12,492 nt of DNA from Flavobacteriales bacterium UBA2426 (GTDB taxonomy: Bacteria > Bacteroidota > Bacteroidia > Flavobacteriales_F > PHOS-HE28), in assembly GCA_002342985.1 (NCBI GenBank), contig DDRC01000077.1:3887-16378 (forward strand), read 5' to 3'. The notes beneath the pieces are model-generated. The model did no database searches. It had not been told where the DNA came from and saw only the letters and a list, made by a program, of their open reading frames with translations. A program made the translations under genes and the position numbers. This document shows positions 284-10,763 of the stretch, one piece after another. Within the stretch, counting starts at the first letter, position 1. Each line of letters starts with the position of its first letter.

Positions 284-322
284 ACGTCCTTTTCACACTC
301 CGTCCCCACGTCTTTTTCACCT
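284..322 (+). promoter_or_regulatory. Tandem T-rich motif upstream of the lipoprotein/kinase operon
   Basis: Two related boxes occur 24 nt apart: ACGTCCTTTTCAC (284-296) and ACGTCTTTTTCAC (308-320). The second extends to CCACGTCTTTTTCACCT (306-322), identical to part of the arm found at 5057 and, on the minus strand, at 10763. The boxes lie 52-90 nt before the ATG at 375. A TTCCTTTG at 346-353 partly fits the Bacteroidota -7 consensus TAnnTTTG, but no clear -33 element was found at the right spacing. The region could be the operon promoter or operator. The role is inferred. Confidence 0.35.
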
Positions 323-374: not shown

Positions 375-1259
375 ATGAAGCACAACAATCCCCTCCTCGG
401 CGCCGCCGCACTCGGTGCACTGCTGCTGGCCCACACCGGCTGCGAGCTGAAGCAGCACGATGAAAAGCCGCCCGGTGAAGCCCCTCCGGCCCTGCTCCAA
501 TTGAATGCGGGCTGCGCCAACGGCGACCTGGGCAAGCGCTCGAAGCTCTACAACGACGGCACCTTGAAGAACGCGGCGGACGCCTTCCAGGTCCACTTCA
601 ACGCGTGGGTGGACGGCAGCAACAAGGACATCACCGGCACGGCGGTTCCGTTGCTGGTGGACAAGCTGAAGGACCTGCGCGACAACATGACCCCGAAGCC
701 CGTGGCGCTGATGGTGCACTACGGCCTGGACGAGGACCGCTTCGCGCCGGTGTTCCAGTTCATGGAGCTCTCGGCTGATGGCGCCCATGCCGTGCCGGTG
801 GGCGACCAGTACGTGGCGGTGAACGGCGAGCTGGTGCTGCCCGGCGTGGCCGGGCCTTCGGCGAAGGACCTGATGGACAACTACGCGAGCGGCATCCGCA
901 TCCGCCGCACCATCGACACCACCTGGTCCAGCGCCATCCTCGCACCCACGGATTACCCCGACCCGCTCGGCGAATGGTTCCGCTTCCCCCTGGAGCTTGA
1001 CCGGCTGGTGGCGGAGAACGGCGGCGACGACATGGCGCTCGTGCTCACCTGCATCAGCGAGCCGCTGTGCTACTCGGCCGCTGCGGCCTTTGCGCCCGGC
1101 CAGGGCGAGGAATACCGCCACCTCATCGCCTGGCACGTGGCACACGGCAACCAGCCGCAGCTCGGCAACGACGACCTGGACGCGCCGCAGCCCGACGACA
1201 AGCTCTACCTGCAGCGCGCCGTGGACCTGGGCCACCTGTGCCCGCCGCGCTGCCGTTAA
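375..1259 (+). CDS. Exported lipoprotein, paralogue of the one at 3477
   Basis: This 294-residue protein belongs to no family I recognise. The ATG at 375 is preferred over the in-frame ATG at 249 because it gives a proper lipoprotein signal: basic start, hydrophobic helix 7-19 and lipobox AHTGC with Cys23. The residues after Cys (ELKQHDEK) are charged, so surface exposure is possible but unproven. The mature part has a VHYGLDE segment (114-120), VGDQYVAVNGEL (142-153), LIAWHVAHG (250-258) and a closing CPPRC (289-293). Each has a counterpart in the same order in the 294-residue lipoprotein at 3477, so the two are probably paralogues. It is first in a unit with a membrane protein, sensor kinase and response regulator. 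A sensory or ligand-binding accessory role is inferred from that context only. Confidence 0.85.
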   Translation: MKHNNPLLGAAALGALLLAHTGCELKQHDEKPPGEAPPALLQLNAGCANGDLGKRSKLYNDGTLKNAADAFQVHFNAWVDGSNKDITGTAVPLLVDKLKDLRDNMTPKPVALMVHYGLDEDRFAPVFQFMELSADGAHAVPVGDQYVAVNGELVLPGVAGPSAKDLMDNYASGIRIRRTIDTTWSSAILAPTDYPDPLGEWFRFPLELDRLVAENGGDDMALVLTCISEPLCYSAAAAFAPGQGEEYRHLIAWHVAHGNQPQLGNDDLDAPQPDDKLYLQRAVDLGHLCPPRCR

Positions 1260-1318
1260 GCCCCGGCGGTGCACGGCCATGCGCCCCGGTGGATAGCTTC
1301 GATGCCCGCGCTTCCGCC

Positions 1319-1975
1319 ATGGAACCCCTCACGCTGCTGAAGATCGCCGTGCAGGCCGCTGCGCTGGGCGCCTGGGCACTGCACCGCCGCTGGGCCCCCC
1401 CCGCGCTGCGCCCCTTGATGCTCTTCCTGGCGCTGAGCGTGGCGGTGGAGAACGCCGCCCTGCTCCTGGGGCGATACACCGGCAACAACACCTGGCTCTA
1501 CAAGGCCTGGGTGCCCGCGCTCATCGTGCTGCTCAGCTACTGGCTGTGGCGCAGCATGGCGCGCCGCTGGGCCACGGCGGCGATCGCTGCGGCGCTCGCC
1601 GTCTACCTGGGCCTGCTCGGCTGGGAGGCCGCCACGGCGAATGCCGAGCGCATCCTCTTCGCCCGCAGCCTGCTCTTCGGCTATGCCTTCATCAGCGCGC
1701 TGTGCGCCGCGGAGCTGCTGCGGCTGGCCACCACCGCCAGCAGCGTGCTGTGGCGGCTGCCGGCCTTCTGGGCGCACCTGGCCTTCTTCGCCTCGCTGGG
1801 CCCGGCCATTCCCTACCTCGGCCTGCTCAACCGCCTCTATGCCGCCGACCGCCAGCTGGCCGACGCCCTCTTCGTGATCGTGGACGTGCTCTTCCTGCTG
1901 CAGTTCGCGGCACTGGGCGTGGCCGGCCTGCTGCTCCGTCCCGCCCCCATCACCCCCGCCCATGGAGAAGGCTGA
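1319..1975 (+). CDS. Seven-helix integral membrane protein linked to the sensor kinase
   Basis: This 218-residue protein is very hydrophobic, with about seven predicted membrane helices (roughly 4-22, 29-50, 60-78, 84-102, 112-135, 148-170, 181-206). I do not recognise a named family. The ATG at 1319 is chosen because it begins directly before the first helix; the open frame continues upstream into the previous gene without a membrane signal. Its end overlaps the kinase start by 14 nt (ATG 1962, TGA 1973-1975), which suggests translational coupling and a shared job. It resembles the protein at 4385 in length, topology and the RLAT...RLPAFW signature (135-151). A role as the kinase's membrane input partner is inferred, not shown. 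Confidence 0.85.
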   Translation: MEPLTLLKIAVQAAALGAWALHRRWAPPALRPLMLFLALSVAVENAALLLGRYTGNNTWLYKAWVPALIVLLSYWLWRSMARRWATAAIAAALAVYLGLLGWEAATANAERILFARSLLFGYAFISALCAAELLRLATTASSVLWRLPAFWAHLAFFASLGPAIPYLGLLNRLYAADRQLADALFVIVDVLFLLQFAALGVAGLLLRPAPITPAHGEG

Positions 1976-2750
1976 CATCGCCTGGGCGGTGGTGGTGAGC
2001 ACCTTGGTGCTGCTGGCCATGGCCGCCTTCGTGGTGCTGCTGCTGGTGCTCAACAGCCAGCGCCGCATGCGCCACCGCACCGAGCTGGCCGAGGCCGAGC
2101 GCGTGCGGCAGACCGAGGTGGCGCGCGCCGAGCGCGAGGCGGTGCGCCACACCCTGCGCGACCTGGGGCGCGAGCTGCACGACAACGTGGCGCAGCTGCT
2201 CACCGTGGCGCAGCTCGGCCTCAACGGCCTGATGGCCGAGCGCCCCGATGCGCGGATCGCCGCGCTGCGCGATGCGGTGGACCGCGGCGTGGAGGAATTG
2301 CGCCGCGTGGCGCACGGGCTCGATGCCGACCTGTGGGCGCGGCGCTCCCTCGCCGATGCCATCGTGGCCGAGGCCGAGCGCATCGAGCGCGTGAGCCGCG
2401 TGCGCGCGCACGTGCTGTGCACCGGCCCGCCGCCGGCCCTCGATGGCGACACCAGCACCATCCTCTTCCGCGTGTTCCAGGAGGCGGTGAACAACGCGCT
2501 GAAGCACAGCGGCGCCGACACCCTCACCATCACCCTCTACGGCGACACGCCCATCACCCTCTGCATCGCGGACAACGGCCGCGGATTCGACGCCGCCACC
2601 ACTCCGGGCAACGGCGGCCTGGCGGCCATCCGCCACCGCTGCGCCCTCATCGGCTTCGATGCGTGGTGCGCCAGCACCCCCGGCCGCGGCTGCATCTGGA
2701 CCCTCACCCAAACCCTGCCCCATGGAACTGCCGATCGCTTTGGTGGATGA
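1962..2750 (+). CDS. Sensor histidine kinase, NarL/DegS type (HisKA_3 + HATPase)
   Basis: This 262-residue kinase of a two-component system autophosphorylates on His and passes the phosphate to its regulator. A single membrane helix (about 7-30) is followed by a charged helical linker (33-66). The HisKA_3 dimerisation region has the phospho-acceptor motif RELHDNVAQ with His73. The ATPase domain (about 163-255) shows the N box FQEAVNNALKHSG (172-184), the G1 box DNGRGFD (204-210) and a GNGGLAAIRHR G2 region. There is no PAS, GAF or periplasmic domain. Only about six residues precede the helix, so sensing must be cytoplasmic or through a partner. It overlaps the membrane protein by 14 nt and the regulator by 29 nt. 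The cognate pairing is inferred from this overlap. Confidence 0.95.
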   Translation: MEKADIAWAVVVSTLVLLAMAAFVVLLLVLNSQRRMRHRTELAEAERVRQTEVARAEREAVRHTLRDLGRELHDNVAQLLTVAQLGLNGLMAERPDARIAALRDAVDRGVEELRRVAHGLDADLWARRSLADAIVAEAERIERVSRVRAHVLCTGPPPALDGDTSTILFRVFQEAVNNALKHSGADTLTITLYGDTPITLCIADNGRGFDAATTPGNGGLAAIRHRCALIGFDAWCASTPGRGCIWTLTQTLPHGTADRFGG

Positions 2751-3402
2751 CCACCACCTGGTGCGCAGCGGGCTCGCCGCTGCCGTGAACGCCTTGGGCG
2801 GCTACGCCGTGCACGTGGAGGCCGGCAACGGCCGCGAGCTGATCGCCGAGCTCGAGCGCGGCGCCGCCCCCCGCATCGCCATCGTCGACCTCAACATGCC
2901 CGTGATGGACGGCTTCGAGACCATCGCCTGGCTGCGCGCCAACGCCCCCCAGGTGCTGCCCCTGGCGCTCACCTTCGATGCCGCCGAAGAGGCCATGGTG
3001 CGCGCCGTGCGCGCCGGCGCCCGCGGCTTCCTGCTGAAGAACGCACGGCCCGAGGTGCTCAAGCGCGCGCTCGACAGCCTGGCGCAGACCGGCTACTACT
3101 ACTCCGACGACCTGAGCGGGGCGTTGCAGCGGCACCCCGACATGAAGACGCGCGCCGAGCGCGAGCGCGACCGCGTGCTGGAGCAGATCACCCCGCGCGA
3201 GATGGAGTTCCTGCTGCTGGTGTGCGACGAGGCCGAATACACCTACGAGCAGATGGCCGAGCGCATGGGCGTGCACCGCCGCACGGTGGACAACTTCCGC
3301 ATCGGCCTCTTCGAGAAGTTCGGCATCAAGAGCAAGACCGGCCTGGTGCTCTTCGCGCTGCGCTGGGGGCTGCTCGGCAACGGCGACGGGCGGCACCTGT
3401 GA
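2722..3402 (+). CDS. Response regulator, receiver + LuxR/NarL-type HTH
   Basis: This is a 226-residue DNA-binding response regulator. The receiver domain (about 1-120) has the acidic pair Asp9-Asp10, phospho-acceptor Asp56 in [11 protein letters not shown], Thr84 and Lys106 in FLLKN. The C-terminal part (about 156-219) is a LuxR/GerE-type helix-turn-helix, beginning [12 protein letters not shown], with [18 protein letters not shown] as the core and [11 protein letters not shown] following. The ATG at 2722 fits the start of the receiver strand ([12 protein letters not shown]) and overlaps the kinase end by 29 nt. Its partner is presumably that kinase. Its stop codon lies inside an 18-bp palindrome that could be an operator for the next genes. 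Confidence 0.95.
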
Positions 3403-3428
3403 AAATTCACAGGGCCCGGCTGTGAAAA
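3396..3428. promoter_or_regulatory. Cluster of three CTGTGAA half-sites, candidate operator
   Basis: The 18-nt sequence CCTGTGAAAATTCACAGG (3396-3413) is an inverted repeat with 8-bp arms and a 2-nt centre. A third half-site, CTGTGAAAA, follows at 3420-3428, 23 nt after the first and facing the middle one. The cluster covers the regulator's stop codon and ends 48 nt before the ATG at 3477. A dyad of this size suits a dimeric regulator such as the LuxR/NarL-type protein just upstream. That link is inferred. It could instead form a small mRNA hairpin. Confidence 0.45.
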
Positions 3429-3476
3429 CAACGCTGTTCGCGGCGGTGCCGGGGGCCTTGCTTCGGCCCTTGAACC

Positions 3477-4361
3477 ATGGCCGCCGCGATCCGCATCCCC
3501 GCCTGCTGGGCCTTCGGCCTCGGCGCCGCCGCGCTGATCGCGCTGGCCTCGTGCGGCGCCGACGGTGCGATGCATGAAACACCGCATGCCCTGGGGCTGC
3601 CGCAGCTCGATTCGGCGCTCAAGGCCGCACTCCCCGCCCTCTACGATGGGCAGGGGCTCTCGCGCAGCGGGCTCATCCGCGCCACGGCGCGCTTCGCGCA
3701 GCACGTGGGCCATGGCCTGCCCGCCGACCCGCGCCCCATCGCCGTGCCGAGCGGCGGCTTCGCCGTGCTGGCCGCGGACCTGCTGGCCGCCTGGGACCGC
3801 TGCCCCGATGCCGCGCCCCGCGCCATGGCCGTGCACCATGGGCTGGACAGCGCCGGCGCCTACACCGTGCGGCTGCAGCCGCTGTGCCCCGCCGGGCCCG
3901 ACCACTGCCTGCGCATCGGCGACGCGGGCCGCCTGCACCCCGATTCCGGGGGCCTCGCGGCCTGGTACGCTCCTGGCGGCCCCGGCCACCGCTACCGCAG
4001 CCGCCTGCTGCTGCGCCCGGTGGTCGCCGACAGCGCATGGCGGACCGTCGGCACCGCACCGCACCCGGCCGTGTTCCCCGAGGAAGCGCTGCGCGCGCTG
4101 ATCGCGGACAACGCGCTGGCCGAAGGAAGGCTGGCGCTGGTGCCCATCGCGGTGCACGATGCCGGGCCGAAAGCTGGCGGCGACGCCACTTCCGACCTGC
4201 TGCCCGGCATCGCCTGGGTGCCCGTGGGCGTGCCCCTCAGCGATAGCCTGCATCCCGCAGCGCCCTACCGCCACAAAGCGCTGGGCAAGGGCGCGCCGTG
4301 CCCGCCCCTCTGTCCGCCCCTACCGCCATCCGCCACAGGGCACGGCGCGGAGCGGCACTGA
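3477..4361 (+). CDS. Second exported lipoprotein, paralogue of the one at 375
   Basis: This protein of unknown function has 294 residues, exactly the length of its paralogue. The N-terminus has a basic residue, a hydrophobic stretch (about 8-24) and lipobox ALASC with Cys26. Segments matching the first lipoprotein in the same order include VHHGLD (119-124), IGD (147-149), a basic strand [10 protein letters not shown] (171-180), [13 protein letters not shown] (200-212), GIAWVPVGV (244-252) and CPPLC (275-279). Identity is low, so the duplication is old. The tail after CPPLC is Pro/Ala-rich. It begins 74 nt after the regulator stop, behind the half-site cluster, and is followed 23 nt later by a membrane protein. 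The arrangement copies the lipoprotein/membrane-protein pair at 375-1975. High GC makes several other frames open here, but only this one has a signal sequence and paralogy. Confidence 0.8.
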
Positions 4362-4384
4362 GGCCCGTGATCCACGCCACCGCC

Positions 4385-5026
4385 ATGACCCTGTACCAGT
4401 TCTGCGCCACGCTCCTGATCGCCGCCATGGCGCTGGCCCTGCTCGCCTACACGCGCGTGCCGTGGCCCCGCCAGCGCGTGTACCGGCTGGCGGGGCTGCT
4501 CACCGCGCTATCGCTGGCCGCGGCGGCCGCAGGGCTCATCGCCGCAGGGCTGCAGGTGAACGGCAGCGCGATCTGCAACGCCTTCATCGCCGCCGAAGCG
4601 CTGCTGGTGCTGGCGGCGGTGCGCGCGCAGCAGCCCGCGTGGGGGCCGCGCCTCGCCGCGGTGGGCGCTGCGGGCATCGCCGCCCTGGCGATCGACCTGT
4701 CGGTGCTGGGCAGCCTGAATCATCCGCTCTCGGTGGGCCTGGCGGTGAACGCCGCGCTGCTGGCCGCCGTGCTCGGCGCACAGCTCTGGCGCCTCGCCAC
4801 GAGGAGCGTGGCACCGGTGCAGCGCGTGCCCGCCTTCTGGCTCTTCGCCGGCATGCTCCTCCACTTCATCGCGCTGCCGCCGGTGACGGCGCTGGCGCAG
4901 CTGGTCGCCCCCGCGGATCCGGCCCTGGCCCGAGCGCTCTGGAGCGTGCCGCTGCTGCTGGGCACCTTGCGCTACCTGCTCGCCGCCTTCGCCTTCCGCC
5001 TTGCCTCTGCCAAGCCTGGGGCGTGA
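4385..5026 (+). CDS. Second seven-helix membrane protein, paralogue of the one at 1319
   Basis: This 213-residue integral membrane protein has about seven predicted helices (roughly 4-22, 34-56, 62-80, 88-108, 116-135, 148-172, 181-204). The ATG at 4385 is chosen because it starts the first helix directly; an in-frame ATG at 4298 would add an Arg/Ala-rich stretch inside the preceding gene. The LWRLAT...RVPAFW signature (134-152) falls at almost the same residue numbers as LLRLAT...RLPAFW in the protein at 1319, which supports paralogy. Unlike that copy, it is not followed by a kinase; an unrelated secreted-protein gene comes next. Function is unknown. A receptor or receptor-modulating role is inferred from the duplicated layout. 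Confidence 0.8.
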   Translation: MTLYQFCATLLIAAMALALLAYTRVPWPRQRVYRLAGLLTALSLAAAAAGLIAAGLQVNGSAICNAFIAAEALLVLAAVRAQQPAWGPRLAAVGAAGIAALAIDLSVLGSLNHPLSVGLAVNAALLAAVLGAQLWRLATRSVAPVQRVPAFWLFAGMLLHFIALPPVTALAQLVAPADPALARALWSVPLLLGTLRYLLAAFAFRLASAKPGA

Positions 5027-5032
5027 TCGCGC

Positions 5033-5068
5033 GGCCGCAGGAGAACGCTGCCGGGGCCACGTCTTTTT
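5033..5068 (+). terminator. Possible intrinsic terminator after the second membrane-protein gene
   Basis: GGCCGCAG (5033-5040) can pair with CTGC (5048-5051) and GGCC (5055-5058), leaving a 7-nt loop and a 3-nt bulge. The T-run TTTTT (5064-5068) follows five bases later. It lies just after the stop at 5026. The bulge and the gap before the T-run make it weak, and the T-run is also part of the dispersed element at 5057. Confidence 0.35.
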
Positions 5069-5086
5069 CACCTTGTGGCGCATCCG
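5057..5086 (+). repeat. Dispersed element, left half of a split palindrome
   Basis: A 21-nt arm (5057-5077) begins CCACGTCTTTTTC and ends CACCTTGTG. It is directly followed by GCGCATCCG (5078-5086). The same arm occurs perfectly on the minus strand at 10743-10763, where GCGCATCCG precedes it on the plus strand. The two copies together spell arm, 9-nt loop, inverted arm. A shorter 17-nt match lies at 306-322. This copy is 83 nt before the ATG at 5170. It could be a remnant of a small palindromic repeat, or a conserved upstream regulatory element. Confidence 0.65.
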
Positions 5087-5169: not shown

Positions 5170-7647
5170 ATGCGCCCCCTCACCGCCCTCCTGGTCCTGC
5201 CCGTCGCCCTCCTGATCGGCACCGATTCCATGGCCCAACGCGTGCTGCCCTTTGGCGAAGGCAGCGTCGGCGGCTTGGGCGTGTTCGACCTGGTCGAGCA
5301 CGAAGGCCGGCTCTATGTGGGCGGGCTCTACACCTCCTTCCTCGGCAATCCACGCCGGAACATCCAGGCGTGGGACGGCACCACCTTCCACGACCTGCCG
5401 GGGGCCTTCACCAGCGCTTCCCAGCGGGTGCGTGACCTGGAAGTGTACAACGGCGAGGTCATCGCCACGGGCAACGACGCCGCCTTGGGCCATGTGGGGC
5501 GCTGGGACGGTGCCGCCTGGCAGCCCATGGGCGCCGGGCTGGCCGCGCAGGGCCGCGCATTGTGCATCCACAACGGCGAACTCTACGTGGCGGCGAACGA
5601 TGGCGCGGTGAACCGGTGGGACGGTGCCGCCTGGCAACCGGTGGGTGCGGCCTTCAACGCAGCGGTCGCCTCCCTGCAGTCGCACAACGGGCAGCTGTAC
5701 GCCGGTGGCGCGTTCGACTTCGATGCCGATTCCACCCAGCAGCTCCGGCGGCTGGCCCGCTGGACGGGAACGGCTTGGGAGGAGGTGGCCACCGGCCTGA
5801 ACAACGCGGTCTCCGACCTGCTCTCCACCCCGGAGGGCCTGGTGGTCGTCGGCTCATTCACCACCCGCGGTGATGGCGCCTTGCAGCTGCCGCGATGGAC
5901 CGTGTATGATGGTGCGGACTTCTCCGAACCGACCGCATCCATCCCCAACGTCGTGAGCATCGAGGCTGTTTGCGCGCACCCTGACGGTGGCTACCTGCTC
6001 GGAAGTGGCTCCGGCTCTCTTTGGGTGAACGGTGCCGCGGTGCGGAACATCCGGTACAACTCCTTGCGCGCGGCCGTTCCCTTCGGTGGCAAGCTGTTGG
6101 TGGGCGGGCTCAACGGCAACTCCTATGCCCCGGTGGGCATCGTGGGCCACTTGACGGACGGCAGCGACCTGGAGCATGTGGATGCGAACCAGATCAAAGC
6201 AGCCGCGATCCCCTCCACGTACCTCTTCAACGACGGCTCGGGGCTCCGGCCCGGCTTCGAAGTGCCACAGGGGAGCGGCGTGCACAGCATCTACTCGGCA
6301 TCCCCCTGGGTCACCGGCTTCCACAGCGGAACCCTCCACAGCGCGGCACCCACCTACGACAATCAGCCGGCGCCCACGGCGGGGCCGCACGCTACGGTGA
6401 TGGATGCCGACTTCTACGAGCGCTACTACCAGGTGTGGAAGCTGGACCAGGCCACCATCAGCCAGCATGCCCAGCAATGGGATCAGAGTGGCTATGTGAT
6501 GCCGTACGCCATCGCCACCTGGCCGGGCAACGGCGATGTGAGCAACGGGGAGCCCGCCCAGCTGGCGCCTTACAAGGACCTGGACAACGACGGGCTGTAC
6601 GAGCCTGCCAGCGGTGAATACCCGCTGATCCGCGGGGACCAGGCCGTGTACTTCATCCTCCACAGCGAGCAGGATGCCGACAGCCTGCACCCGCCCATGC
6701 TGCTGGACCTGCATGTGATGCACTACGCCTACAACACGGGCGGCAACACGGACCTGCAACGCACCGTTTTCACCAACTACCGCATCGTGAACCGCGGCAG
6801 CCTGGACTTCACCGGTGTGCGCTTCGGCGCCTTCACGGACATGGACCTGGGATTCTACGACGATGACCTGGCCGGCTGCGACTCGCTGCTGGGCCTTTTC
6901 TTCACCCATAACGGCGACGGTGACGATCAGACCACATCCAGTGCTGCTGGGTATGGTGCCGACATCCCGGCCCAGGGGGTGCTCTTCCTGAACCAGGCGA
7001 TGAGCGCGCACAATGCGATCAGCCGCAATGCACCCTTTAACACTCCGCTGGAGGATGCCATCAATGGCACCTGGCAGGGGGCGCCCTTCGCCCAGCCGAT
7101 CAGTCCCTTGGACTACCCCACGCACTTCGAATACCCCGGTGGTGCCTGGGTGGATCAGCTCAACCTCGCCAGCCCCGACCGCTACGCGGTGGGCTCGGCC
7201 GGTCCATTCATGCTCAATGCCGGCGATACCCTGTGCGTGGACCTGGCCTATCCATGGGCACGCGCGGCGAGCGGCGACCCGTTGGAGAGCCTGGAGGCCC
7301 TCCGCACCCGGGCGCAGGCGGTGAAGAACTGGTACACCGCGCAGCAATGGACCTGCGGGGAGGTGGAGGACATCATCTCCGGGGTGGCGGAGGCGGCTGA
7401 TGCGGCCGGCCTGCAGGCCTTCCCGAACCCCGCGCAGCACCGGCTTACGCTGACCCGCACGGCTGGCATGGGGCCTGGCATGCTCTCCCTGTATGCGGCC
7501 TCCGGGGCCCAGCTGAGGCTGGTGCGCTGGCCCGCCGGCACCGAGCGCCTGCAGCTGGACGTGCACGACCTGCCGGCGGGCATCTACCACGCCGTGCTCG
7601 CCACCGGAAACGCGTTGCATCGCACGCGGGTGATGGTGACGCCGTGA
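5170..7647 (+). CDS. Secreted T9SS cargo protein with N-terminal propeller-like repeats
   Basis: This 825-residue protein has a signal peptide (about 1-22, hydrophobic TALLVLPVALLIG, cleavage near SMA/QRV). Residues about 30-230 carry propeller-like repeats that pair an (L/V)xRWDGxAWxxVG strand (near 109, 147 and 195) with an HNGxLYxGG strand. Residues about 350-740 form a domain that I know only as common in large Bacteroidota secreted proteins. It includes an Asp-rich, probably calcium-binding loop DLDNDGLYEPASGEYP (470-485) and then YPLIRGDQAVYFI. Residues 748-825 are a type A T9SS sorting domain, starting LQAFPNPAQ and ending in LPAGIYHAVL and RVMVTP. It is therefore exported by the Sec and type IX routes and probably released or anchored at the surface. 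No catalytic motif was seen, and substrate or partner is unknown. It appears monocistronic. Confidence 0.9.
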   Translation: MRPLTALLVLPVALLIGTDSMAQRVLPFGEGSVGGLGVFDLVEHEGRLYVGGLYTSFLGNPRRNIQAWDGTTFHDLPGAFTSASQRVRDLEVYNGEVIATGNDAALGHVGRWDGAAWQPMGAGLAAQGRALCIHNGELYVAANDGAVNRWDGAAWQPVGAAFNAAVASLQSHNGQLYAGGAFDFDADSTQQLRRLARWTGTAWEEVATGLNNAVSDLLSTPEGLVVVGSFTTRGDGALQLPRWTVYDGADFSEPTASIPNVVSIEAVCAHPDGGYLLGSGSGSLWVNGAAVRNIRYNSLRAAVPFGGKLLVGGLNGNSYAPVGIVGHLTDGSDLEHVDANQIKAAAIPSTYLFNDGSGLRPGFEVPQGSGVHSIYSASPWVTGFHSGTLHSAAPTYDNQPAPTAGPHATVMDADFYERYYQVWKLDQATISQHAQQWDQSGYVMPYAIATWPGNGDVSNGEPAQLAPYKDLDNDGLYEPASGEYPLIRGDQAVYFILHSEQDADSLHPPMLLDLHVMHYAYNTGGNTDLQRTVFTNYRIVNRGSLDFTGVRFGAFTDMDLGFYDDDLAGCDSLLGLFFTHNGDGDDQTTSSAAGYGADIPAQGVLFLNQAMSAHNAISRNAPFNTPLEDAINGTWQGAPFAQPISPLDYPTHFEYPGGAWVDQLNLASPDRYAVGSAGPFMLNAGDTLCVDLAYPWARAASGDPLESLEALRTRAQAVKNWYTAQQWTCGEVEDIISGVAEAADAAGLQAFPNPAQHRLTLTRTAGMGPGMLSLYAASGAQLRLVRWPAGTERLQLDVHDLPAGIYHAVLATGNALHRTRVMVTP

Positions 7648-9751: not shown

Positions 9752-10672
9752 CTACCGATGCGCCGGAACCGGCCGGATCGATCGGCTCCGGCGGTGCCCC
9801 TCACCCCGGCTGCGCAACGCGGCCAAGGCCGCATGCGCGAAGACGGTGCGGTCGGCGCCGCGGTGCACGAAGCGGTGAGCGCCGGCGCCCGGGGTGAAGC
9901 ACGCGCGGCCGCGCCAAAGGTCCTCGATGCATTGCGCCTGCGCCTCGCGGTTGAAGCGCCGCCAGCCGATGCGGCCGCGCACCGGCTCCAGCATCCAATC
10001 GTAGGCCGCACGGCCATGCGCCGCCTGGGCGGCCAAGGCCTCCGCGGCATAGCGCGGGCCCCAGCGCCGGTACTGCCACACGTGCACGGCTTCGTGCACC
10101 AGCAGCGCGCCATCGGTGCGCCCGCCGCGCCGCTTGAGGTAGATCGAATTGCCCAGCGCGAAGGGGCGCGCGCTGAGGCCGAAGAGCCCGGCGCGGCCGT
10201 CCACGATGCGGATGCCGGCGGGCGCCAGCGCATCACCGAACACCGTGCGCAGCAGAGCATATTCGGCTGGCGTGAGCGGCCGGTCGGCGGCCTGGGCGCC
10301 CACCAGCCGCTGCACCAGAGCCACCAGCTGCCCCGCCGTCACCAGGGCGCCGCCGGCGAGCGCCGCGCATGGATGGAGCAGTCCTCGCCATAGTCCGGCG
10401 CGATGACCGAGCAGGCCGCACACGCTCCGCAGCGGCGCGGCGAGCACCGCCGCCAGCAGGTCTGCTCCGCCCTTGATCAACGCACCGCACAATTGCGCAA
10501 GGCCCACCGGCAGGCCGCCGGCCCAGCGGCTGCGCCGTTGCAGCGCCCGCTGCCCGGCGTCGCCCAAGGCCTCCACCCGGGCGGCTGCGCACTCGGCCGC
10601 ATCGTTCAACGCGACGACCACACCGCGTGCGCAACGGCGCAATCCGAGCATCAGCGTGAAGCGCAGGCGCAT
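9752..10672 (-). CDS. Putative HExxH metallopeptidase-like protein with hydrophobic N-terminal region
   Basis: Read on the minus strand, this gives 306 residues from the ATG at 10672. The open frame continues to 10870, but the extra 66 residues are translated from the upstream region that holds the dispersed element and look non-coding. Residues about 16-125 hold several hydrophobic helices (for example 64-80 and 102-121), suggesting membrane association. Residues about 131-250 start RPLTPAEYALLRTVFGD and contain VHEAVHVWQY, an HExxH zinc motif (His193, Glu194, His197). FNREAQAQ follows, with Glu243 a possible third ligand. The layout resembles the DUF4157/Vgr-related group, from memory. Whether it is an active protease is unknown. 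The C-terminal tail (286-306) is basic. It stands alone, divergent from the gene at 10905. Confidence 0.75.
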   Translation of the reverse strand: MRLRFTLMLGLRRCARGVVVALNDAAECAAARVEALGDAGQRALQRRSRWAGGLPVGLAQLCGALIKGGADLLAAVLAAPLRSVCGLLGHRAGLWRGLLHPCAALAGGALVTAGQLVALVQRLVGAQAADRPLTPAEYALLRTVFGDALAPAGIRIVDGRAGLFGLSARPFALGNSIYLKRRGGRTDGALLVHEAVHVWQYRRWGPRYAAEALAAQAAHGRAAYDWMLEPVRGRIGWRRFNREAQAQCIEDLWRGRACFTPGAGAHRFVHRGADRTVFAHAALAALRSRGEGHRRSRSIRPVPAHR

Positions 10673-10733: not shown

Positions 10734-10763
10734 GCGCATCCGCACAAGGTGAAAAAGACGTGG
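10734..10763 (-). repeat. Dispersed element, other half of the split palindrome
   Basis: On the plus strand GCGCATCCG (10734-10742) is followed by the 21-nt arm (10743-10763) that is the exact reverse complement of 5057-5077. Read on the minus strand, the arm's T-run precedes the gene starting at 10672, with 70 nt between arm and ATG. The arm therefore faces its downstream gene as the copies at 306 and 5057 do, while the 9-nt loop is inverted relative to the arm. The last two bases overlap a small palindrome GGTGCGCACC (10762-10771). Confidence 0.65.

Follow-up and report, generated by a model that had tools for sequence, protein, structure and literature searches.

Four described systems bear a likeness to the gene cassette reported here, which lies in a 12,492-nt stretch of DNA (the window) from Flavobacteriales bacterium UBA2426 (assembly GCA_002342985.1, contig DDRC01000077.1, positions 3,887 to 16,378, forward strand). 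The cassette consists of a variable protein (X), a seven-transmembrane-helix (7TM) protein, a sensorless HisKA_3 histidine kinase (HK) and a NarL/LuxR-type response regulator (RR). In the LiaFSR and VraTSR systems of Firmicutes, one operon likewise joins a membrane accessory protein, which is an inhibitor, to a HisKA_3 kinase without a sensor domain and a NarL-type regulator; these systems belong to another phylum, however, and are not known to have a seven-helix receptor-shaped protein or an exported partner. In UhpABC, a separate multi-helix membrane protein, UhpC, sits next to the HisKA_3 kinase UhpB, senses and relays to it, and the regulator is of the LuxR class. The HK of the window also matches UhpB in an NCBIfam scan, but UhpC is transporter-type, UhpB has a large membrane domain of its own, and the system is not known to include an X protein. 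The 7TMR-DISM receptors share the seven helices, an extracytoplasmic part and an intracellular signalling output, yet combine them in one chain, whereas four genes are used here and the Pfam match to 7TMR-DISM is lacking. Finally, a sensory rhodopsin and its transducer also rely on a separate heptahelical protein that signals laterally in the membrane to a kinase-controlling partner; in contrast, the cassette 7TM has no conserved lysine in transmembrane helix 7 (TM7), and its proposed partner is the kinase itself. In the Bacteroidota, many short HisKA_3 kinases have no sensor domain.

We propose, with a probability of about 0.55, that the cassette is a split-receptor two-component system, built from a fast-evolving exchangeable input, a relay shaped like a G-protein-coupled receptor (GPCR) or rhodopsin, a sensorless kinase and an autoregulating regulator. 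In such a system X (LP1 and LP2 in the window) would be the changeable input protein that acts, by physical contact, on the separate 7TM protein; the latter would be the membrane relay that switches the HK; the HK would phosphorylate the NarL-type RR; and the RR would bind the 14-mer CACGTMTTTTTCAC, raising or lowering the expression of its own cassette and of a few nearby exported proteins. LP2–7TM2 would be a second receptor pair, here without its own kinase or regulator, probably feeding the kinase at 1962–2750.

The window comes from contig C188 of the assembly G000 (3.64 Mb in 256 contigs, 83.6% complete), and carries on one strand the genes LP1, 7TM1, HK, RR, LP2 and 7TM2 (Table 1). An earlier sequence-only reading had given this order, with its coordinates, the 294-aa length of both LP proteins and a set of shared motifs, all of which agree with the sequence. 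Since the intergenic gaps are small (59 nt between LP1 and 7TM1, 74 nt between RR and LP2, 23 nt between LP2 and 7TM2) and two gene pairs overlap (7TM1/HK by 14 nt, HK/RR by 29 nt), the six genes are likely to form one operon. In the HK, both HATPase_c (E 1e-10) and HisKA_3 (E 7.4e-7) score over the Pfam cutoff, the Pfam scan detected no sensor domain, and one N-terminal hydrophobic helix can be read from the translation, as expected from the earlier description of a kinase without its own sensor. The receiver of the RR (Response_reg, E 4.3e-20) is also over its Pfam cutoff; the DNA-binding domain reaches 22.6 bits with GerE (cutoff 23.5), and full-length NarL/MctR-like matches in NCBIfam fall below the cutoffs. 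Read by eye, the lipobox of LP2 (LASC) is canonical, as is that of the LP1 ortholog (LSGC) in G001, a single-contig genome of the same species, while LP1 itself (HTGC) has a histidine at −3.

In the neighbourhoods compared, the recurring unit is a cassette of X (often CPPxC-ended), 7TM, sensorless HisKA_3 kinase and NarL/LuxR regulator. A search with 7TM1 found matches in 26 of 45 genomes, all in the genus of the window, and a profile search of 32 genus genomes added one more (G044). The genus sample, made up of 29 stretches around 7TM1 matches plus the window, thus holds 30 stretches with 35 7TM genes, of which 33 are directly followed by a kinase and 32 preceded by a protein with a CPx(1-4)C tail; a regulator lies behind the kinase in 22, some stretches being cut off by the end of a contig. 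A kinase is missing only behind 7TM2 of the window and behind its G001 counterpart. Class-wide, 96 of 396 genomes, 13 from the genus, matched the 7TM profile. The 40 stretches taken at the best-scoring matches outside the genus hold 41 7TM genes (including those of loci L211–L213, absent from the gene-caller output but recovered and counted); a kinase lies behind the 7TM in 39, followed by a regulator in 37; a CPxC-tailed protein precedes it in 30, and all components occur together in 29. As a control, a CPxC-type tail ends 40 of the 862 frames in these stretches that reach 100 aa, X proteins included. Both neighbourhood counts refer to best-scoring matches, with loci L007 and L008 left out. 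The survey thus bears out the earlier expectation that the LP and 7TM genes recur next to the kinase.

Across the phylum, 72 of 296 genomes matched, and the arrangement was looser in 20 stretches (28 7TM genes) picked by hand, non-randomly, down the ranking: a kinase lies behind the 7TM in 16, followed by a regulator in 10, a CPxC tail lies ahead in 14, and all components are present in five. Copy numbers are lower bounds, at most seven candidates per genome having been scored in the class search and at most ten in the phylum search. In L228, L235 and L239, two or three consecutive 7TM genes precede a single kinase; a 7TM without its own kinase is therefore a recurring arrangement. In L234 three 7TM genes follow one another, and no kinase was scored after them. 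At the X position of L231, L232, L233 and L239, the tails retain the glycine and prolines, without the cysteine pair.

The 7TM protein is predicted to be GPCR/rhodopsin-shaped. Structures were predicted for LP1 and 7TM1, and the 50 matches listed for the 7TM1 model comprise GPCRs, rhodopsins, designed GPCR-like folds, LYCHOS/GPR155 and an entry whose whole title is 'membrane protein'. The charge pattern of the 7TM proteins points to an N-out/C-in topology. Microbial rhodopsins carry their retinal-binding lysine in helix 7, but a lysine occurs anywhere in the TM7 columns of only 9 of 42 7TM members, and a microbial rhodopsin was rejected on this ground. A 7TMR-DISM receptor was rejected as well, the window having separate open frames in place of one chain and the 7TMR-DISM profile giving no Pfam match at E ≤ 0.01 in two sets of 42 and 48 7TM members. 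Neither 7TM1 nor 7TM2 matches the LiaF/VraT family in Pfam or NCBIfam at E ≤ 5. The remaining Pfam matches are scattered and were not accepted as family membership: Acyl_transf_3 in two (best E 4.6e-4) and DUF2627 and DUF6056 in one each of the 48 members, and three families with one member each in the set of 42. A close named relative, with 88% identity to 7TM1, has a record assigned to a 'Flavobacteriales bacterium'.

Outside the genus, X genes are either short (about 100–225 aa) or long (about 240–315 aa), and the C-terminal half of LP aligns with the short form, co-terminal at CPPxC (profile comparison probability 96.7, E 3.9e-10). A profile search with X gave 914 relatives, of which the 120 listed lack Pfam domains and, where named, are called 'hypothetical protein'. 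No consistent Pfam family was found for X, LP or 7TM members, nor a consistent NCBIfam family for the LP and 7TM proteins of the window and 25 X proteins; isolated matches of X to five NCBIfam families (one member each of 25, best E 6.4e-5) and of LP to two Pfam families (one each of 39 members) were rejected as scattered. The cassette matches no named system found, as the sequence-only reading had suspected, and the families of X and its 7TM partner are unnamed.

The two pairs of the window are homologous, a relationship visible only to profiles. Direct BLASTP gave E 0.016, off-diagonal, for LP1 against LP2, and E 0.002 across 56 residues for 7TM1 against 7TM2. With profiles trained on 33 other genus cassettes, excluding pair 2 of the window and of G001, LP2 scored 65.9 bits (E 5.3e-19) and 7TM2 129.3 bits (E 1.5e-38); when the sister clade was also dropped (31 cassettes), the E values were 2.2e-16 and 2.9e-34, and the best of 200 shuffled sequences reached 1.3 bits (LP) and 0.8 bits (7TM). 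Shared motifs are VHYGLD at 114 of LP1 and VHHGLD at 119 of LP2, LIAWHVAHG at 250 and GIAWVPVGV at 244, the tails CPPRC at 289 and CPPLC at 275, and, in 7TM1 and 7TM2, RLAT at 135/136 and R(L/V)PAFW at 146/147. Since the LP motif offsets differ and the LP2 tail is longer, the equal length of LP1 and LP2 looks like a coincidence. The homology claimed earlier therefore holds, but not the duplication around the kinase that had been read from it. LP2 and 7TM2 each group with the cassettes L120:12646 and L121 (support of 97 in the Shimodaira–Hasegawa-like approximate likelihood ratio test, SH-aLRT, in both trees), which carry their own kinase and regulator, and LP1 and 7TM1 branch apart from these sets in both trees. 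Judged by this branching, pair 2 stems from another cassette lineage and did not arise by tandem copying of pair 1.

With neither HK nor RR behind 7TM2 and no operator before LP2, pair 2 could be a decaying, functionless remnant of a second cassette, a reading that fares best among the rivals but that we still consider rather unlikely. Against it, two genomes keep both frames open, LP2 retains its signal, the GLD motif and CPPLC, and 7TM2 retains the invariant W and P. The ratio of nonsynonymous to synonymous divergence (dN/dS) between G000 and G001 is 0.73 for LP2 and 0.28 for 7TM2, with a synonymous divergence (dS) below 0.02, so that these values are not decisive. A receptor pair sharing the HK is tentatively favoured over a remnant, at somewhat less than even odds. 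Since LP2 starts 74 nt after RR with no putative operator before it, pair 2 looks co-transcribed with RR, and the earlier suggestion that it is a target of the system finds little support.

We have also compared the evolution of the components in 21 of the 35 cassettes (all four genes present, kinase longer than 200 aa, G001 left out). Mean pairwise identity is 21% for LP, 26% for 7TM, 48% for HK and 59% for RR. Between loci L123 and L117 the 7TM, HK and RR are 83, 85 and 79% identical and the LP 14%; the L123 LP is 33–37% identical to those of L132, L130 and one L114 cassette. By these identities, L123 seems to be a natural exchange of the input protein. Such a pattern bears on the possibility that 7TM and X are inhibitors or dampers of an intramembrane-sensing kinase, in the manner of LiaF acting on LiaS, with the kinase itself sensing the membrane state. 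The HK is indeed of the HisKA_3 type and has a short N-terminal helix, its matches include the LiaS family, under the cutoff (E 9.5e-12, NCBIfam), and a VraS structure (E 2.5e-7), and the LiaF-LiaS-LiaR layout is similar; yet X and 7TM have diverged much more quickly than the HK, and X seems to have been swapped in L123, which suits input specificity better than a constant brake. We regard dampers as an unlikely explanation.

A candidate operator, newly described here, accompanies the cassette. The sequence CACGTCTTTTTCACC has three exact copies in the window (0.00 expected) and four in the whole of G000, the fourth on contig C132; all four copies in G001 lie within 20 kb (3,267,433–3,287,110) around the cassette, and none was found in three other genus genomes searched. 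The 14-mer CACGTMTTTTTCAC occurs 30 times among 44 genus genomes, in 13 of them (one copy for the reversed control), and 28 of the 30 copies are in genomes with a 7TM match. The gene directly behind it belongs to the LP family in 10 cases (8 in other species) and to the RR family in two; the other copies precede genes for exported proteins or a few unrelated genes (all named by eye), or no clear gene. Upstream of LP genes other than those of the window and G001 (n = 32, one half of the frame-split LP of L109 having been dropped beforehand), it is exact in 7 and has at most two mismatches in 13, compared with 0.2% and 0.5% of random stretches. It was not found upstream of LP2. Class-wide, a looser form, [GC]GT[AGC]TTTTT, lies before X in 14 of 40 loci (0.79 expected) and in 4 of 314 other upstream regions, although it was defined on these same loci; on held-out stretches it was seen in 2 of 17 (0.44 expected), L230, L236 and L240 of the 20 being left out with no start assigned.

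These associations suggest that the RR may read CACGTMTTTTTCAC. The motif might instead have no connection with the RR and be a rare promoter or repeat found in the genus, since copies precede a UMP-kinase-like gene (L244) and a restriction-like gene (L257), both named by eye, and some precede no clear gene. The near-confinement of copies to genomes with a 7TM match, the 12 of 30 before LP- or RR-family genes and the clustering of all G001 copies around the cassette argue against such an origin, which we find doubtful. A separate palindrome between RR and LP2, TTCACAG-N7-CTGTGAA, has exact copies only in the G000 and G001 loci among 241 loci.

Table 1. Features of the window, with positions counted from its first nucleotide.
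Feature	Position	Strand	Description
LP1	375..1259	+	294 aa, exported, lipobox-like HTGC, C-terminal CPPRC; family profile
7TM1	1319..1975	+	218 aa, seven-helix membrane protein, N-out/C-in by charge; model pLDDT (predicted local distance difference test) 92.8
HK	1962..2750	+	262 aa, single N-terminal hydrophobic helix, HisKA_3 (His73), HATPase_c
RR	2722..3402	+	226 aa, receiver (Asp56), NarL/LuxR-type helix-turn-helix
LP2	3477..4361	+	294 aa, lipobox LASC, CPPLC tail; divergent LP-family member
7TM2	4385..5026	+	213 aa, second 7TM member, no kinase behind
Palindrome TTCACAG-N7-CTGTGAA	3406..3426	+	perfect, directly after RR stop codon, before LP2
Candidate operator CACGTCTTTTTCACC	307..321	+	54 nt from its first 14 bases to LP1 start codon
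Second operator copy	5058..5072	+	98 nt from its first 14 bases to start at 5170
Third operator copy	10748..10762	-	76 nt ahead of minus-strand gene
Candidate target	5170..7647	+	825 aa, weak Por_Secre_tail (type IX secretion), E 4.1e-4, 21 bits (Pfam cutoff 27)
Candidate target	9752..10672	-	306 aa, HEAVH (HExxH) motif read by eye

The distances between cassettes count in favour of a split receptor, with one reservation. In the 21 cassettes, the coupling of pairwise distances weakens along the LP-TM-HK-RR chain: Pearson correlations are 0.38 for LP-TM, 0.41 for TM-HK and 0.71 for HK-RR (each reached by 0 of 2000 permutations), 0.24 for TM-RR (9 of 2000), and a non-significant 0.10 for both LP-HK (199 of 2000) and LP-RR (180 of 2000). 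Spearman coefficients fall below these (0.26, 0.18, 0.63, 0.03, −0.05 and −0.07 in the same order). Because the gene order is the chain order, linkage may account for this decay. A more puzzling result concerns X: a hydrophobic N-terminus is present in 14 and absent from 26 of the 40 X proteins of L178–L217, by a crude score on hand-chosen starts, while the 7TM and kinase are unchanged across these loci. In some lineages X thus seems to be exported, but in most of those sampled to stay in the cytosol, and the envelope-only pathway of the sequence-only reading is therefore not the whole story: 'lipoprotein' may suit LP1 and LP2, with their lipobox-like sites, but not X in general. This variation, unusual in a ligand that belongs to a single membrane face, and the candidate operator directly before X would suit an X that is the output, mainly induced by the RR and acting elsewhere (surface or cytosol) with the 7TM alone as the sensor, but LP distances follow those of the TM (Pearson) and not those of HK or RR, and an autoregulated operon starting with X would have its operator there anyway, which leaves an output role the least likely of the alternatives.

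Comparison with G001 shows that the locus spans the edge of a divergent tract. Of four further G000 stretches, three were compared with G001. Two of them, of nearly 6 kb each, are 98–100% identical to G001; in the window, identity is 97–100% beyond about 3000 and 71–94% before it (1 to ~3000, and C188:1-3886). The break falls in the RR gene or just after it, and dS is 0.15–0.27 for LP1, 7TM1, HK and RR and 0.016–0.019 for LP2 and 7TM2. Contig C132 matches next to the same G001 place at 85–87%. The tract looks like an allelic exchange of the cassette and neighbouring surface-protein genes; a chimeric contig in a fragmented assembly is possible. The repeat-rich coding stretch left of LP1 on C188 matches several G001 places (C1, about 3.280–3.287 Mb) at 67–84%, and continues on contig C132.

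A wider picture, which as a whole we hold to be improbable, would be a bacterial counterpart of receptor-effector coupling. It would have a GPCR-shaped 7TM, with a gene separate from that of its effector, couple an exchangeable protein ligand (X, through its conserved tail) to a histidine kinase, with cassettes trading inputs, tandem receptors able to share a kinase, and the cassette and surface-protein genes forming a one-operator divergent island between genomes that are otherwise near-identical in the stretches sampled, a pattern that a recognition or environment-matching locus would be expected to show.

Taken together, the cassette is a concrete candidate for what may feed sensorless HisKA_3 kinases, namely a 7TM receptor encoded next to them and an input protein that varies. 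It yields two new protein families, a candidate operator and, in L123, a case of an apparent input swap, and it makes input specificity directly testable.

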